From Bacteroidetes bacterium HGW-Bacteroidetes-10 (GTDB taxonomy: Bacteria; Bacteroidota; Bacteroidia; Bacteroidales; UBA932), in NCBI GenBank assembly GCA_002842695.1, contig PHDT01000005.1:1-64000 (forward strand): a stretch of 64,000 nt of DNA, given 5' to 3'. Positions 6,682 to 62,932 of the stretch are shown here, one piece after another. Numbering within the stretch: the first letter of the stretch is position 1; each line of letters starts with the position of its first letter. A program made the position numbers and the translations under genes. Under the pieces are notes generated by a model, which saw only the letters and a list, made by a program, of their open reading frames with translations, did no database searches and was not told where the DNA came from.

Positions 6682-6699
6682 TTGCGTTCTAAATTCCCT

Positions 6700-6741
6700 A
6701 AAAAAAACATCTCCGGCAAAATTGCCGGAGATGTTTTTTTT
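6700..6741. terminator. Strong bidirectional terminator
   Basis: A 20-bp perfect stem (6700-6719 with 6722-6741) around a 2-nt centre, with a GC-rich core (ATCTCCGGCAA) flanked by A8 and T8 tracts. It separates the acyl-CoA ligase gene (+) from the convergent metallophosphatase gene (-) and can serve both. Confidence 0.92.
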
Positions 6742-6793
6742 AGCTTAAAACCAGTGATGTACATCTGTCTGAAATCAGAAGAGGGGTAACATA

Positions 6794-57563: not shown

Positions 57564-58010
57564 ATGAATAAACTGACAAAAAGCATAGGAATTGCATCCG
57601 ATCATGCCGGATACGAACTCAAGGAGCTGCTCAAAAAAGAGCTGGCTGCCAGAGGATATACAGTTGAAGATTTTGGAACTCACTCTGCTGAAAGCATGGA
57701 CTACCCAGATGTAGCCCACCCGCTTGCATCTGCTGTGGAGAGCGGTAAGCTTCCGCAAGGCATTGCCATATGCGGCTCCGGCAACGGAATAAGCATGACT
57801 GTAAACAAACATGCTGGAATCAGGGCAGCACTATGCTGGACTCCGGAGCTGGCAAAGCTTGCCAGAAACCATAATGATGCAAACATCCTTTCACTTCCGG
57901 CACGTTTTATCTCGGAAGAAATGGCTAAAGAGATTCTTGAGGCATTTCTCACATCTGAATTTGAAGGCGGCAGACATGCAAACAGGGTTAATAAAATCGG
58001 GTGCCGATGA
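57564..58010 (+). CDS. rpiB: Ribose 5-phosphate isomerase B
   Basis: 148 residues of the RpiB/LacAB family: IGIASDHAGYELKELLKKEL, VEDFGTHSAESMDYPDVAHPLASAV, GIAICGSGNGISMTVNKHAGIRAALCW and HNDANILSLPARFIS. The CGSGNG motif with its cysteine is typical of RpiB. It interconverts ribose 5-phosphate and ribulose 5-phosphate in the cytoplasm. The stop codon overlaps the truB start (ATGA). The mRNA is predicted to be leaderless. Confidence 0.95.
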   Translation: MNKLTKSIGIASDHAGYELKELLKKELAARGYTVEDFGTHSAESMDYPDVAHPLASAVESGKLPQGIAICGSGNGISMTVNKHAGIRAALCWTPELAKLARNHNDANILSLPARFISEEMAKEILEAFLTSEFEGGRHANRVNKIGCR

Positions 58011-58756
58011 CCAGTAACAAAACCTATCTGATTCTTGATAAAACATCGCTCCCGGTAACTCCGTCAAGAGATCTGGAATCATATCCGGGCGGTATCGTGC
58101 TGGTGCTTGACAAACCATTGCACTGGACCTCTGCAGATGCAGTACGAAAGATCAAATTCCGCCTCCAGAGATACTTCAATCTGAAGAATATCAAGGTAGG
58201 TCATGCCGGCACACTAGACCCGCTTGCAACAGGTGTTCTGCTTATATGCATAGGCAAGGCAACACGTTCTGCAGAATCAATTCAGGCAGAGAGAAAAGAG
58301 TATATAGCCGATATCCGTTTTGGAGCCACCACACCATCTTATGACCTGGAAAAGGAGATTGACCAGACCTATCCTCACGAACATATTACTAAGGAGCTGA
58401 TTGAAAGCCTGCTTGATGGAATGAAGGGTGAAATTGACCAGATACCTCCTGTATTTTCTGCCAAGCTGATTGACGGCAAAAGGGCATATGAACTGGCCCG
58501 TGCGGGAAAGGAGACAGAGATGAAGCCATCCAGGATCTCAATATATGACCTTCAGGTTATCAACTGGCAAATTCCGGATCTGAAAATCGCCATCAGCTGC
58601 AGTAAAGGAACCTATATAAGATCATTTGCAAGAGATATTGGAGTTGCTGCCCAAAGCGGAGCCCACCTCTCAGGTCTGATACGAAGTGCCTCGGGATGCT
58701 TCAGGGTTGAAAATGGCTTATCGATGGCAGATGTTGAAGAAATCTTCAAAATCTGA
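58007..58756 (+). CDS. truB: tRNA pseudouridine(55) synthase
   Basis: 249 residues from the ATG at 58007, which overlaps the rpiB stop by ATGA. A GTG two codons upstream is possible. Motifs: GGIVLVLDKPLHWTSADAVRKIK, KVGHAGTLDPLATGVLLICIGKATR (catalytic aspartate), YIADIRFGATTPSYDLE, GEIDQIPPVFSAKLIDGKRAYELAR and CSKGTYIRSFARDIG. TruB makes pseudouridine 55 in the T arm of tRNAs. Length is a little shorter than E. coli TruB as the C-terminal PUA domain is reduced. Confidence 0.96.
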   Translation: MTSNKTYLILDKTSLPVTPSRDLESYPGGIVLVLDKPLHWTSADAVRKIKFRLQRYFNLKNIKVGHAGTLDPLATGVLLICIGKATRSAESIQAERKEYIADIRFGATTPSYDLEKEIDQTYPHEHITKELIESLLDGMKGEIDQIPPVFSAKLIDGKRAYELARAGKETEMKPSRISIYDLQVINWQIPDLKIAISCSKGTYIRSFARDIGVAAQSGAHLSGLIRSASGCFRVENGLSMADVEEIFKI

Positions 58757-58792
58757 AAAATATTTCAAATAATTGAAACATTTGTGACAAAA

Positions 58793-58833
58793 ATGCGTAT
58801 AAGAAAGAGTCGTCAACTTTTTATAAAACGCAT
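58793..58833. repeat. Imperfect inverted repeat before queA
   Basis: ATGCGT (58793-58798) and ACGCAT (58828-58833) frame an imperfect 41-bp dyad that also pairs AAA/TTT and AGT/ACT-like segments inside. It ends 2 bp before the queA ATG. A leader hairpin or an operator is possible; its shape is not that of a preQ1 riboswitch. Confidence 0.4.
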
Positions 58834-58835
58834 AT

Positions 58836-59885
58836 ATGAAATTATCGCAGTTCAACTACAACCTTCCAGCAGATACAATTGCCAAATATCCCGCCAAATA
58901 CAGGGATGAATCTAAACTTCTCGTTTTGCACCGCAAAACAGGTGAGATTGAGCATAAGAACTTCAAGGACATCCTTGAATACTGCCAGGAGGAGGATGTA
59001 TTCATCTTCAACAACACAAAGGTATTTCCTGCCAGACTTTATGGAAACAAGGAAAAAACCGGCGCAGAGATTGAGGTATTCCTTCTCAGGGAATTAAACA
59101 GCGAACAGAAACTTTGGGACGTACTTGTAGATCCTGCAAGAAAAATCCGTATAGGCAACAAACTATACTTCGGGGAGAATGACAGTCTGGTTGCTGAGGT
59201 TATCGACAATACAACTTCAAGGGGCAGAACTTTAAGATTCCTTTTTGACGGAACTCACGACGAGTTTAAGGCAACATTGTTCCGCCTGGGAGAAATGCCC
59301 ATTCCTAAATGGATCCGCTCTAAGGCAGAAAACATAGACACAGAAAGATATCAGACCATATATGCCCAGCATGAGGGAGCGGTAGCAGCACCTGCTGCCG
59401 GACTTCACTTTAGCAGAGAGCTTATGAAGAGAATGGAAATAAGGGGTATTAATACTACCGAGATTACTCTTCACATGGGTCTTGGTCACTTCCGCACCGT
59501 AGATGTAGAGGACCTTTCAAAACACAAGATGGACTCTGAACAGATGAACATCTCTGCAGAGTCTGCAAACGAAATCAACAAAGCCAAAGAGAAGGGAAGA
59601 AAAGTATTTGCCGTTGGAATTACAGTATTAAGAGCTGTTGAGACTTCTGTAACAACTCAGAGTAAAATTAAACCTTACTCAGGCTGGACCAATAAATTTA
59701 TTTTCCCTCCTTACAGCTTCTCAATCCCTGATGCGCTTATTTCAAACTTTCACCTCCCTCAGTCTACAATGCTAATGACAGTTGCAGCATTCGGGGGTTA
59801 TGACAATGTTATGAGAGCGTATAATGTAGCAATAAAAGAGGGCTACAAATTTGGAACTTACGGTGATGCGATGCTCATAATCTGA
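58836..59885 (+). CDS. queA: S-adenosylmethionine:tRNA ribosyltransferase-isomerase
   Basis: 349 residues. Motifs: [124 protein letters not shown] and the end region YGDAMLI. QueA builds epoxyqueuosine in tRNA using the ribosyl group of SAM. Its substrate precursor comes from the pathway started by FolE, encoded at 26715. It lies 79 bp after truB, with an inverted repeat just before the ATG. Confidence 0.97.
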
Positions 59886-59901
59886 TAAATCTGCAGAAAT
59901 T

Positions 59902-59940
59902 CAGAATTCTGGATTTAATTTCCCTGATTCTGTATTTTTT
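59902..59940 (+). terminator. Possible weak terminator after queA
   Basis: CAGAAT (59902-59907) pairs with ATTCTG (59927-59932), followed by TATTTTTT. The stem is short and A/T-rich, so read-through into dprA is likely. Confidence 0.4.
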
Positions 59941-59945
59941 CTGAC

Positions 59946-60000
59946 AATCATCGGGATACTTGATTTTATCTTTGAGATAAAAACATGTATCCCGATGATT
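59946..60000. promoter_or_regulatory. 55-bp near-perfect palindrome spanning the dprA promoter and start codon
   Basis: Centred on 59973, 24 of 27 base pairs match. The outer arms are perfect for 14 bp (59946-59959 and 59987-60000); mismatches are at 59960/59986, 59963/59983 and 59972/59974. The -7 box TATCTTTG (59967-59974) lies in the middle and the ATG (59985-59987) in the right half. In a read-through RNA from queA the hairpin would hide the start codon; in an RNA started at the internal box the left arm is absent. Confidence 0.7.
59967..59974 (+). promoter_or_regulatory. -7 box TATCTTTG for dprA
   Basis: Exact TAnnTTTG match ending 10 bp before the dprA ATG, in the centre of the 55-bp palindrome. 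The mRNA leader should be only a few bases long. Confidence 0.5.
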
Positions 60001-61094
60001 TATTATATGATATAGCGCTGAGCAAAATTTTCAGATACAGGGTGAACATTCCGGTCTCAATTATTGATAATCTTGGCTCGGCAAAGGCTCTCTTTGAAAT
60101 GAACAGGGAGATGCTTGGAGAGATTTTTAACCCTGGTCAGGTCTGTATTGATGAAATACTCAATCACAAGAATCTTGAAGAGGCGTCGGCAGAAATTGAG
60201 TGGTGCAGGGAGAAGGGAATCCGCATTCATCACCGGGATGATGAGGATTTTCCGCCAAAGCTCAGAAACTGCCCCGATGCTCCTGTTGTCTTCTTTTCTT
60301 TCGGAAACTGCAGTTTAAACACAGAGAAAATTGTTTCTGTAGTAGGTACCAGACTTGCATCTTCATACGGAGAGAATAGCTGCCGTAAAATTATCGGAGA
60401 GCTCTCTCAGTCTGGTTTAAAACCCGTAATTGCAAGCGGACTTGCATTTGGTATAGACATCACGGCACATCTTGCTGCTCTGGACTCCGGTCTTGACACA
60501 ATTGCCGTTCTGGCAAATCCTCTTGACAGGATTTATCCGGTATCTCACACCTCTCATGCCAGGCGGATAGTTAAACAGGGTGCTCTCATTACAGAGTTTG
60601 CCAGAGGCAGTGAGTCATTCAAGATAAACTTTGTTCAGAGAAACAGACTTATTGCTGGAATTGCATCGGCAACCATAGTTGTTGAATCAAGGGCAAGAGG
60701 AGGCGCTTTGATAACTGCAGAACTTGCACATTCATACTCCAGGGAGGTCTTTGCCGTACCGGGAAGGATATCTGATTTGCGCTCCGAAGGATGCAACAAT
60801 CTGGTAGCAAAGAATATTGCCACTATTTACACATCTGTTGATGAACTTCTTGCCTCTCTTGGATGGGACAGAGAGAAGCCGGCTGGTGAGACGGACGAGA
60901 GGAAATTGTTTTACGAGGGCGACCCGGACAAAGAAAAAATATTAGTAGCTTTGAGGCTGAATCCAGAACTGAATATCGATGAGTTACACGGAATTACGGG
61001 GCAGAAAATTCATGAGCTTACAGCAAGACTGCTTGAGCTTGAAATTGAAGGTTATCTCTGCTCCCTGCCCGGAAACCGGTATTCGGTGGTTTAA
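59985..61094 (+). CDS. dprA: DNA-processing protein DprA
   Basis: 369 residues. An N-terminal helical region (SAM-like, 1-70) is followed by the extended Rossmann-fold DprA domain: RIHHRDDEDFPPKLRNCPDAPVVFF, VSVVGTRLASSYG, VIASGLAFGIDITAHLAALD, LANPLDRIYPVSH, FVQRNRLIAGIASATIVVES and GALITAELAHSYSREVFAVPG. The last 60 residues (DKEKILVALRLNPELNIDELHGITGQ) match the winged-helix C-terminal domain. DprA loads RecA on incoming single-stranded DNA in natural transformation. Its promoter and start codon lie in a 55-bp palindrome. It is 12 bp before tatD. Confidence 0.95.
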   Translation: MYPDDLLYDIALSKIFRYRVNIPVSIIDNLGSAKALFEMNREMLGEIFNPGQVCIDEILNHKNLEEASAEIEWCREKGIRIHHRDDEDFPPKLRNCPDAPVVFFSFGNCSLNTEKIVSVVGTRLASSYGENSCRKIIGELSQSGLKPVIASGLAFGIDITAHLAALDSGLDTIAVLANPLDRIYPVSHTSHARRIVKQGALITEFARGSESFKINFVQRNRLIAGIASATIVVESRARGGALITAELAHSYSREVFAVPGRISDLRSEGCNNLVAKNIATIYTSVDELLASLGWDREKPAGETDERKLFYEGDPDKEKILVALRLNPELNIDELHGITGQKIHELTARLLELEIEGYLCSLPGNRYSVV

Positions 61095-61106
61095 CCAAAG
61101 CTGTAA

Positions 61107-61883
61107 ATGTCTGCATTAATTGATACCCACACACATCTCTACGACGAAGCATTCAGTGAAGACCTGAAAGAGGTTGCCGCCAGGGCAAAAGAGGCAGGTG
61201 TAGCTGCCTGCGTACTGCCAGCAATTGACAGCAGTTGTCACTCAAGGCTTCTTGAGTGCGCCGGCTCGATGCCCGGCTTTCTCTATCCCTGCGTTGGTCT
61301 GCATCCAACATCTGTGGGAAGCGACTGGGAGAGTGAACTGAACTTTGTTATTGAAGAGAGCAGCAGAAGAAAGTATTATGCCGTTGGGGAAATTGGCATG
61401 GACGGCTACTGGTCACGGGAGTTCATGAAAGAACAGGCTCACGTATTTAACAAGCAGCTGGAGCTGGCATCTTCAATGGATTTGCCAGTAATAATCCACT
61501 CCAGGGATTCATTTGAAGAGATCTTTGAAGTTCTGGAAAAATGCAGGCACCTTAACTTAAGGGGTGTCTTCCATGCCTTCTCAGGGAGTATTGAGACATT
61601 CCGCAGAATCAGCAAATACGGTAACTTTAAAATTGGGATAGGCGGAGTTGTCACCTTCAAAAACGCACATGTTGCTAAAACAGTTAAGGAGGCAGGTCTT
61701 GAAAACATCATTCTTGAGACAGATTCTCCATGGCTGACTCCGGCTCCTTTCAGGGGAAAACGCAACGAACCGGCCTATGTTGCCATAGTTGCCGGCAAGC
61801 TGGCAGAGATATTTGAGGTTTCTGAGGAGGAAATCGCAGCAACTTCTACTGCAAATGCCGTAAAATTGTTTAATTTGCATTAG
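61107..61883 (+). CDS. tatD: TatD-family metal-dependent deoxyribonuclease
   Basis: 258 residues of the amidohydrolase superfamily: IDTHTHLYDEAF (HxH), GLHPTSVGSDWE, GEIGMDGYW (metal-bridging Glu), IIHSRDSFEEIFEV, VFHAFSGSIETF and ILETDSPWLTPAPFRGKRNEP. All metal ligands are in place. TatD proteins are 3'-5' exonucleases acting in DNA repair or nucleic acid turnover. It follows dprA by 12 bp, so the two DNA-processing genes probably share a transcript. Members of the family are hard to separate by sequence, so TatD versus YcfH is not decided. Confidence 0.93.
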   Translation: MSALIDTHTHLYDEAFSEDLKEVAARAKEAGVAACVLPAIDSSCHSRLLECAGSMPGFLYPCVGLHPTSVGSDWESELNFVIEESSRRKYYAVGEIGMDGYWSREFMKEQAHVFNKQLELASSMDLPVIIHSRDSFEEIFEVLEKCRHLNLRGVFHAFSGSIETFRRISKYGNFKIGIGGVVTFKNAHVAKTVKEAGLENIILETDSPWLTPAPFRGKRNEPAYVAIVAGKLAEIFEVSEEEIAATSTANAVKLFNLH

Positions 61884-61897
61884 AAATCATTTACACT

Positions 61898-62932
61898 ATG
61901 AATTCATCCATACTCCTAATATATACCGGAGGCACAATAGGCATGAAACAAGATCCGGAAACCGGAGCTCTTATGCCATTTAATTTCAATCAGATACTCG
62001 ATGAGGTCCCTGAATTGAAAAAATTCGGATATAAAATAGACACTTACTCCTTCGAGCCACCCATTGACTCTTCCGATATCCAGACAGGATTCTGGATTGA
62101 GATAGCCAGACTAATAGAAAGTCACTACGATAATTATGATGGCTTTGTGATCCTTCATGGCACTGATACTATGTCATATTCTGCATCTGCACTTAGCTTC
62201 ATGCTTGAAAATCTCAGAAAACCCGTAATTTTCACAGGCAGTCAGCTTCCCATAGGGATGCTCCGCACGGACGGAAAGGAGAATCTCATATCTTCAATAG
62301 AAATCGCTGCTGCAAAAGATGAAAAAGGAGATGCAATGGTCCCGGAGGTTTGCGTCTATTTCGAGAGTCAGCTTTACAGGGGTAACAGAACTACAAAATA
62401 CAATGCAGAAAATTTCAGGGCATTCCGTTCGGCAAACTATCCTGTACTGGCAGAGTCCGGCATTCATATAAGATATAACAGGTCGTCCATAAGCTATCCG
62501 GAAAGTAAAAAGGCAAATCTTAAGGTAAATGATAAACTGGATACTTCTGTAGCAATTCTTAAGATATTCCCCGGAATCACAGAGCAATTCGTTGAGTCTT
62601 TTCTTAACATGAAGGGTCTCAGAGCTATAATACTTGAAACTTATGGTTCAGGGAACGCTCCAACTGCCAGCTGGTTTATTAATTCACTCAGGAAAGCAAT
62701 TGACCGAGGGTTAATAATTTTAAATGTATCACAGTGCCATGCAGGCAAGGTTGACATGGACGCATACTCAACCGGTATACTTCTCAAGAAGATAGGGGTA
62801 GTGAGCGGTTTTGACAGTACCACAGAGGCTGCTTTAACCAAATTATTTTTTTTACTGGGACATGAAACAGAAACTCAAGTTGTTAAAAATATCCTGGTAG
62901 AAAATTTGAGAGGGGAAATTACAATCAATTAG
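61898..62932 (+). CDS. ansA: Type I L-asparaginase
   Basis: 344 residues without signal peptide. First active-site threonine in LIYTGGTIGMKQDPETGAL, second in FVILHGTDTMSYSASALSFML. PVIFTGSQLPIGMLRTDGKENLISS and LETYGSGNAP are further family blocks. It is a cytoplasmic enzyme that hydrolyses asparagine to aspartate and ammonia, in line with the aspartase at 32002, which turns aspartate to fumarate. It sits 14 bp after tatD and ends at a hairpin. Confidence 0.94.
   Translation: MNSSILLIYTGGTIGMKQDPETGALMPFNFNQILDEVPELKKFGYKIDTYSFEPPIDSSDIQTGFWIEIARLIESHYDNYDGFVILHGTDTMSYSASALSFMLENLRKPVIFTGSQLPIGMLRTDGKENLISSIEIAAAKDEKGDAMVPEVCVYFESQLYRGNRTTKYNAENFRAFRSANYPVLAESGIHIRYNRSSISYPESKKANLKVNDKLDTSVAILKIFPGITEQFVESFLNMKGLRAIILETYGSGNAPTASWFINSLRKAIDRGLIILNVSQCHAGKVDMDAYSTGILLKKIGVVSGFDSTTEAALTKLFFLLGHETETQVVKNILVENLRGEITIN

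Follow-up and report, generated by a model that had tools for sequence, protein, structure and literature searches.

A hairpin enclosing a promoter-like box and the start codon of dprA, a candidate terminator with a nested promoter in one family of Bacteroidales

At the mobile elements IS10 and IS50, a transcript entering from outside folds on itself so that the transposase start is hidden, and a transcript begun at the inside promoter does not; the pairing uses the element's own terminal repeat. Hairpins at phage T4 I-TevI, I-TevII, I-TevIII and segB and at Aeh1 mobE form, according to the available part of one study, only on transcripts from an upstream promoter, where they hide the translation start, and the promoter of each gene is placed so that its own transcript cannot fold and the start is freed (PMC2988022). 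In E. coli, as far as the accessible text of another study goes, the DNA immediately upstream of start codons is depleted of inverted repeats, and most of the repeats that follow stop codons belong to terminators (PMC6060812). Transcriptome papers on Bacteroides treat promoter motifs and predicted terminators in the portions at hand (PMC7366714, PMC10994844), and a limited check of the open literature (titles and abstract openings) found no report of the arrangement described here.

We analyzed a 64,000-nucleotide stretch of DNA, hereafter the window, in which a palindrome encloses a promoter-like box and the start codon of the recombination and competence gene dprA. As at the T4-type hairpins, RNA initiated upstream is predicted to bury the translation start. 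In the available part of that work the T4-type hairpins hide a Shine-Dalgarno sequence and serve viral timing, whereas dprA is a chromosomal Bacteroidota gene with no Shine-Dalgarno sequence before its ATG in the window; a coding U-rich tract, the near-exclusion of a separate terminator and compensation over genus-level distances also set it apart from the T4-type hairpins as described there. Like an intrinsic terminator, the dprA hairpin has a G+C-containing stem followed by a U-rich stretch, and it lies at a site where relatives have a plain terminator-like hairpin; unlike one, its stem and loop contain the promoter box and start codon of the next gene, and its candidate U-tract is coding and imperfect. 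From the sequence, the T4-type nested-promoter principle combined with a terminator appears to be the best reading. The dprA hairpin is unlike the pairing in IS10 and IS50, which depends on the terminal repeat of a mobile element. Shine-Dalgarno sequences are seldom used in Bacteroidota.

The palindrome at the dprA start

The genes truB, queA, dprA, a tatD-family gene and a type I asparaginase gene follow one another in this order, all on the + strand. The features at the junction of queA and dprA are as follows.

58836..59885, + strand: queA, the upstream gene
59946..60000, + strand: the whole palindrome, or start-enclosing hairpin (from sequence, arm search, RNA fold and window scan)
59946..59959, + strand: outer 5′ arm, non-coding, its complementarity to the 3′ arm kept in relatives
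59964..59971, + strand: inner helix, 5′ strand (from sequence and fold)
59967..59974, + strand: TATCTTTG, a fit to the Bacteroides −7 consensus TAnnTTTG
59975..59982, + strand: inner helix, 3′ strand (from sequence and fold)
59985..61094, + strand: dprA, with a TIGR00732 match above its cut-off
59985..59987, + strand: dprA start codon ATG, within the hairpin
59987..60000, + strand: outer 3′ arm, covering dprA from the third base of codon 1 through the first base of codon 6
60000..60008, + strand: U-rich codons 6-8 (TTA TTA TAT), candidate terminator U-tract

The two 26-nt arms (59946-59971 and 59975-60000) are 92% complementary and separated by 3 nt; they comprise a perfect outer helix of 14 bp (59946-59959 with 59987-60000) and an inner helix of 8 bp (59964-59971 with 59975-59982). 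Position 60000 is at once the last base of the 3′ arm and the first base of the U-rich tract. A window-wide scan ranked this palindrome, centered at 59973 with 24 of 27 pairs, at the top of the 64-kb window, against a maximum of 20 pairs in 60 length-matched first-order random sequences. The arm search and the scan thus bear out the first-pass annotation of this DNA, which had described a palindrome of these dimensions with 14-bp perfect outer arms; the −7 box in its middle (59967-59974) and the ATG in its right half (59985-59987) are also where that annotation had placed them. Folded as RNA, the region reaches −29.9 kcal/mol (z −8.79), and none of 200 shuffles is as good. The runner-up palindrome (center 6721, 23/27 pairs) is an A8-stem-T8 terminator-like repeat between convergent ORFs. 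The surrounding perfect 22-bp inverted repeat at 6698-6743, with its A8 and T8 runs, has the looks of an ordinary two-way terminator and offers a yardstick for the terminators of this genome.

No second copy of the arm pair, of an arm (one mismatch allowed) or of an 86-base stretch was found in the assembly, which is 93.5% complete. A repeat, a REP element or a miniature mobile palindrome, for which many copies are expected, was therefore rejected, and the earlier concern that the palindrome might be one of many repeats is removed. An Rfam search of positions 58000-62000 gave sub-threshold matches only, mostly to other hairpin families, and since none reached the gathering score a described RNA family was also rejected.

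The −7 consensus of Bacteroides promoters is given as TAnnTTTG in the accessible part of PMC7366714, and no −33 TTTG is visible upstream of the dprA box in the window. If the box is centered at −7, transcription would start at about 59977-59979, and the mRNA would lack the 5′ arm and have a leader of 6-8 nt. In the predicted read-through RNA of the window, the A and G of the AUG are paired (0.95 and 0.99) and the U is mismatched. In RNA predicted from the presumed internal start the hairpin is lost and a local fold of −4 to −8 kcal/mol remains, in which the U and G of the AUG are still paired (0.73-0.94), leaving the start not fully open.

Pairing and terminator signals in related genomes

A dprA match was present in 191 of 199 sampled genomes of the family and in all 25 of the window's genus (g1). 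We examined dprA starts, selected by rule from alignments, in 148 genomes of 21 genera: 25/25 of g1, 3/3 of g27, 39/40 of g31 (one without a match), 20/26 of g30 (one without a match, five with a match short of the start or split) and, among the matches listed, 61 of the remaining genomes of the family. A start was scored as hairpin-enclosed when the duplex between about −70 to −11 and −2 to +24 reached −18 kcal/mol or lower and, when the left side was dinucleotide-shuffled 100 times, no more than 2 shuffles attained that value. By this rule the start-enclosing hairpin was found in 59 of the 106 genomes of six genera, and in five of the six (g1, 9/25; g18, 1/3; g27, 3/3; g30, 12/20; g31, 34/39; g22, 0/16). 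One rule-positive genome of g19 (G042) was discounted, its 5′ arm falling in the queA coding sequence; it is excluded from the 59 hairpin genomes yet included in the 60 of the box counts below. Other families of the order were sampled with 16 genomes, 13 with a usable dprA place and 12 with a called start, and none of the 12, one of them with a doubtful start, scored in a test with single-base shuffles (best duplex, −14.2 kcal/mol); a feature of the whole order was rejected on this count.

Within g1, the nine hairpins enclose both a −7-like box and the dprA ATG and represent eight distinct sequences, two being identical. Among the other 16 genomes of this genus, a terminator-like hairpin with a T run precedes the ATG in 14, and the rules detect neither element in 2. 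Five of the 39 g31 genomes fail the hairpin rule; two of these (G054, G201) carry a terminator-like hairpin by eye that our scan missed, and three (G089, G189, G221) carry weaker start-enclosing hairpins.

The arms differ in their letters between and within genera, being ATCATACTCCAT/ATGGAGTATGAT, GTCGGACTCC/GGAGTCCGAC and GATCGGAGTCC/GGACTCCGATC in g31 and ATCCCGTCT/AGACGGGAT in g30. In g1 they change together, from CCC/GGG to TCC/GGA and from GATGA/TCATC to GAAGA/TCTTC, and each of the two outermost pairs occurs in three types. In the alignment of the eight distinct g1 sequences (A1), 85.7% of 112 cells are paired (slid partners, at most 54.5%), and changes on both sides occupy 12 cells at 4 of 14 pairs (4.4 cells in shuffles), with the number of doubly changed pairs not above shuffles (mean 3.0; 143/500). 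The 33 distinct g31 sequences (A2) are paired in 93.7% of 427 cells (slid partners, at most 43.1%), with both-sided changes in 65 cells at 8 of 13 pairs (20.3 cells in shuffles). For the 11 g30 sequences (A3), in which the conserved helix starts just 3′ of the ATG, 96.4% of 110 cells are paired (slid partners, at most 66.4%) and 3 of 10 pairs are doubly changed. Further pair types are no more numerous than in shuffles for A1, A2 or A3 (145, 142 and 137 of 500). Some of the compensated changes leave the DprA protein as it is, for instance the synonymous GAT/GAC at codon 4 in g31. The symmetry is thus kept with compensating changes in relatives, a comparison that the first-pass annotation had put forward as a check, and this supports its RNA reading.

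The three alignments together contain 559 Watson-Crick cells; a further 43 cells read G-U on the + strand, and 6 read C-A, which is G-U on the other strand. Counted as distinct column and type, G-U and C-A stand at 9 versus 5. This strand asymmetry is supportive of RNA over DNA as the paired molecule, though not decisive.

The hairpin and a separate upstream terminator nearly exclude each other. With a terminator scan reaching up to 130 nt upstream of the start, one of the 106 genomes of the six genera has both elements, 58 carry just the hairpin, 37 carry just an upstream terminator and 10 carry neither (g1, 0, 9, 14 and 2; g30, 0, 12, 8 and 0, in the same order). The sole genome with both (G233) has a weak terminator-like stem 109 nt upstream, and one further genome (G065) combines a terminator with a hairpin slightly under the cut-off. 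Fifteen rule settings, the original included, preserve the near-exclusion, with the loosest terminator rules giving 5-7 genomes with both. On a tree of 77 DprA proteins, with the first ten codons omitted, the hairpin state changes at least five times, two of these being single g31 near-misses. The tree holds four well-supported independent pairs, of which 1-2 are informative and none runs the wrong way; a sign test on so few informative pairs cannot reach significance and is not significant, and Fisher values for the exclusion are overstated because related genomes are not independent.

Synonymous codon choice just downstream of the arm follows the hairpin. In 51 hairpin genomes, codons 6-8 contain 5.08 T of 9, versus 3.87 expected from the gene's own synonymous usage, an excess of 1.21 ± 0.10 as against 0.29 ± 0.13 in 22 terminator genomes. 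The excess in the hairpin genomes is 0.42 ± 0.10 over codons 9-12 and −0.33 over codons 13-16; within the arm it is 0.82 ± 0.14 at codons 3-5, which the U-tract does not explain. A stable G+C-containing stem, as in intrinsic terminators, is present in the predicted folds. The U-tract after the dprA hairpin is weaker than at plain terminators of the same genome, and the hairpin is absent from the list produced by a consensus terminator scan (loop up to 8, 5 T of 8).

The promoter-like box recurs in both classes of genome. TAnnTT lies between −30 and −5 in 58 of the 60 hairpin genomes (6/60 and 3/60 in two control stretches) and in 40 of the 41 terminator genomes (15/41 and 0/41 in control stretches). 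The longer TAnnTTTG, at 5 or 6 letters, is enriched in terminator genomes (35/41 versus 11/41 in the control) and not clearly so in hairpin genomes (37/60 versus 25/60 in a control stretch). In four terminator-type g1 loci (L010, L011, L013, L025) the T run reads TATTTTTG and lies 4 nt before the dprA ATG, so that the terminator's U-tract may also act as the −7 box for a dprA mRNA with almost no leader.

The hairpin is largely specific to dprA. The same rule applied to long loci scored 51 of 77 dprA starts, 2 of 73 queA starts (a near-identical genome pair) and 2 of 68 tatD starts. We also applied it to 625 ORFs (61 from the window, 299 from a sample of genome G000 and 265 from a sample of genome G072), keeping the best of at most 8 candidate ATGs for each. 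Twenty-five ORFs pass, dprA with the first of its candidate ATGs and the remaining 24 with ATGs at least 8 codons in; four of the 24 sit 8-28 codons in and could by position be true starts, two of them looking internal by eye. In the window and about 367 kb of G000 (360 ORFs), dprA alone scores at the first candidate start; the G072 sample, about 325 kb that does not include the dprA of that genome, has no such case among its 265 ORFs. The ORF control together with the queA and tatD counts rules out a general feature of gene starts. Locus L224 (genome G082) retains the start-enclosing hairpin although queA and dprA are separated there by an ORF that looks epimerase-like by eye. Because it is kept despite the intervening ORF, the hairpin goes with dprA rather than with queA.

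Weighing the readings

We propose that one RNA hairpin probably serves as the terminator of the upstream transcript and holds the nested promoter and start of dprA. Only transcripts arriving from upstream, through truB and queA, would form it. It would act as an intrinsic terminator whose 3′ arm is dprA codons 1-6 and whose U-tract is the U-rich codons 6-8, so that most read-through polymerase would stop at the very start of dprA, and any RNA escaping termination would carry its start codon in a stem and be poorly translated. The dprA promoter would lie near the hairpin apex; a transcript begun there would lack the 5′ arm, could not form the hairpin, and would be extended and translated. Some 60 bases would then hold a terminator, a promoter and the beginning of a coding sequence, and would shield dprA from the operon upstream. 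Conserved compensation, the near-exclusion of other terminators, the U bias and the position of the box support this reading, from which we infer termination, promoter activity of the box and start occlusion. Weighing against it are the comparatively weak U-tract, the unclear enrichment of the longer TAnnTTTG box, the pair-type counts no higher than in shuffles, the small number of independent switches, the residual fold over the AUG in RNA from the internal start, and the hairpin retained at L224 with another gene in between.

A purely translational switch, with the dprA start masked by the hairpin on read-through RNA and polymerase passing unhindered, seems unlikely to be the whole account. 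The start codon is indeed paired, all three of its bases in 31 of the 34 g31 hairpin genomes and its A and G in the window, and the layout equals that of T4 I-TevI as given in the available part of PMC2988022; yet such a switch leaves unexplained the terminator in most hairpin-less species and the synonymous U bias of codons 6-8, and the g30 helix begins only past the ATG. Since most hairpin-less relatives carry a terminator and codons 6-8 are U-enriched chiefly in hairpin species, the first job of the hairpin is probably to end the upstream transcript, and hiding of the start codon in read-through RNA is, from the modeled folds, likely secondary to termination. The RNA switch suggested in the first-pass annotation is retained in that an RNA hairpin with compensated pairing is present, with start hiding demoted to an added effect. 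Its corollary, that dprA is expressed from its own internal promoter rather than by read-through from queA, gains support from the symmetry kept with compensation.

That annotation had also offered a large DNA operator, and an operator or cruciform bound by a regulator at the dprA promoter would account for a long two-fold symmetry centered on the −7 box. We regard it as very unlikely: arm letters differ between genera and change pairwise within a genus, loop length varies while pairing is kept, no operator sequence is conserved in the relatives, and G-U cells on the + strand outnumber C-A cells, though by less when counted as distinct column and type. Template switching that repeatedly copies one quasi-palindromic arm onto the other needs no selection, can yield concerted changes and is compatible with the covariation counts taken alone; such a mutational artefact is nevertheless very unlikely, given that the hairpin is rare at other gene starts, that it accompanies the absence of a separate terminator and that U-rich synonyms outside the arms accompany it.

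If the terminator with nested promoter is real, a terminator can sit in the first codons of the next gene, shaping its synonymous codons and kept by compensatory change over genus-level distances, and terminator searches confined to intergenic space would miss such elements; dprA in these Bacteroidota would be insulated from the upstream operon. We put forward more tentatively, and with some doubt, a three-in-one element, with terminator, promoter and start codon in a single hairpin, that would have had repeated origins or persisted from genus to genus, specifically at dprA, and that would let only RNA begun inside it be finished and translated. Such an element would be a source-sensing switch of a recombination gene, chromosomal and non-viral.

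Three further observations concern the flanks and variants of the element. Upstream of the start-enclosing hairpin, hairpin-type loci of g30 (for example L112 and L116) carry another hairpin that is G+C-rich and lacks a T run. In g31 loci such as L090 and L104, a ATTGCTTTTYTG-like stretch recurs about 35 nt upstream of the box, before the 5′ arm. At locus L068 (genome G083), a hairpin CCGGCGC...GCGCCGG, located some 57 to 27 nt upstream of the dprA ATG, has TATCTTGG in its loop and a T-rich run after it, also upstream of the ATG; judged by its layout, this is perhaps an intermediate form, with a promoter nested in a terminator-like hairpin that leaves out the start codon.
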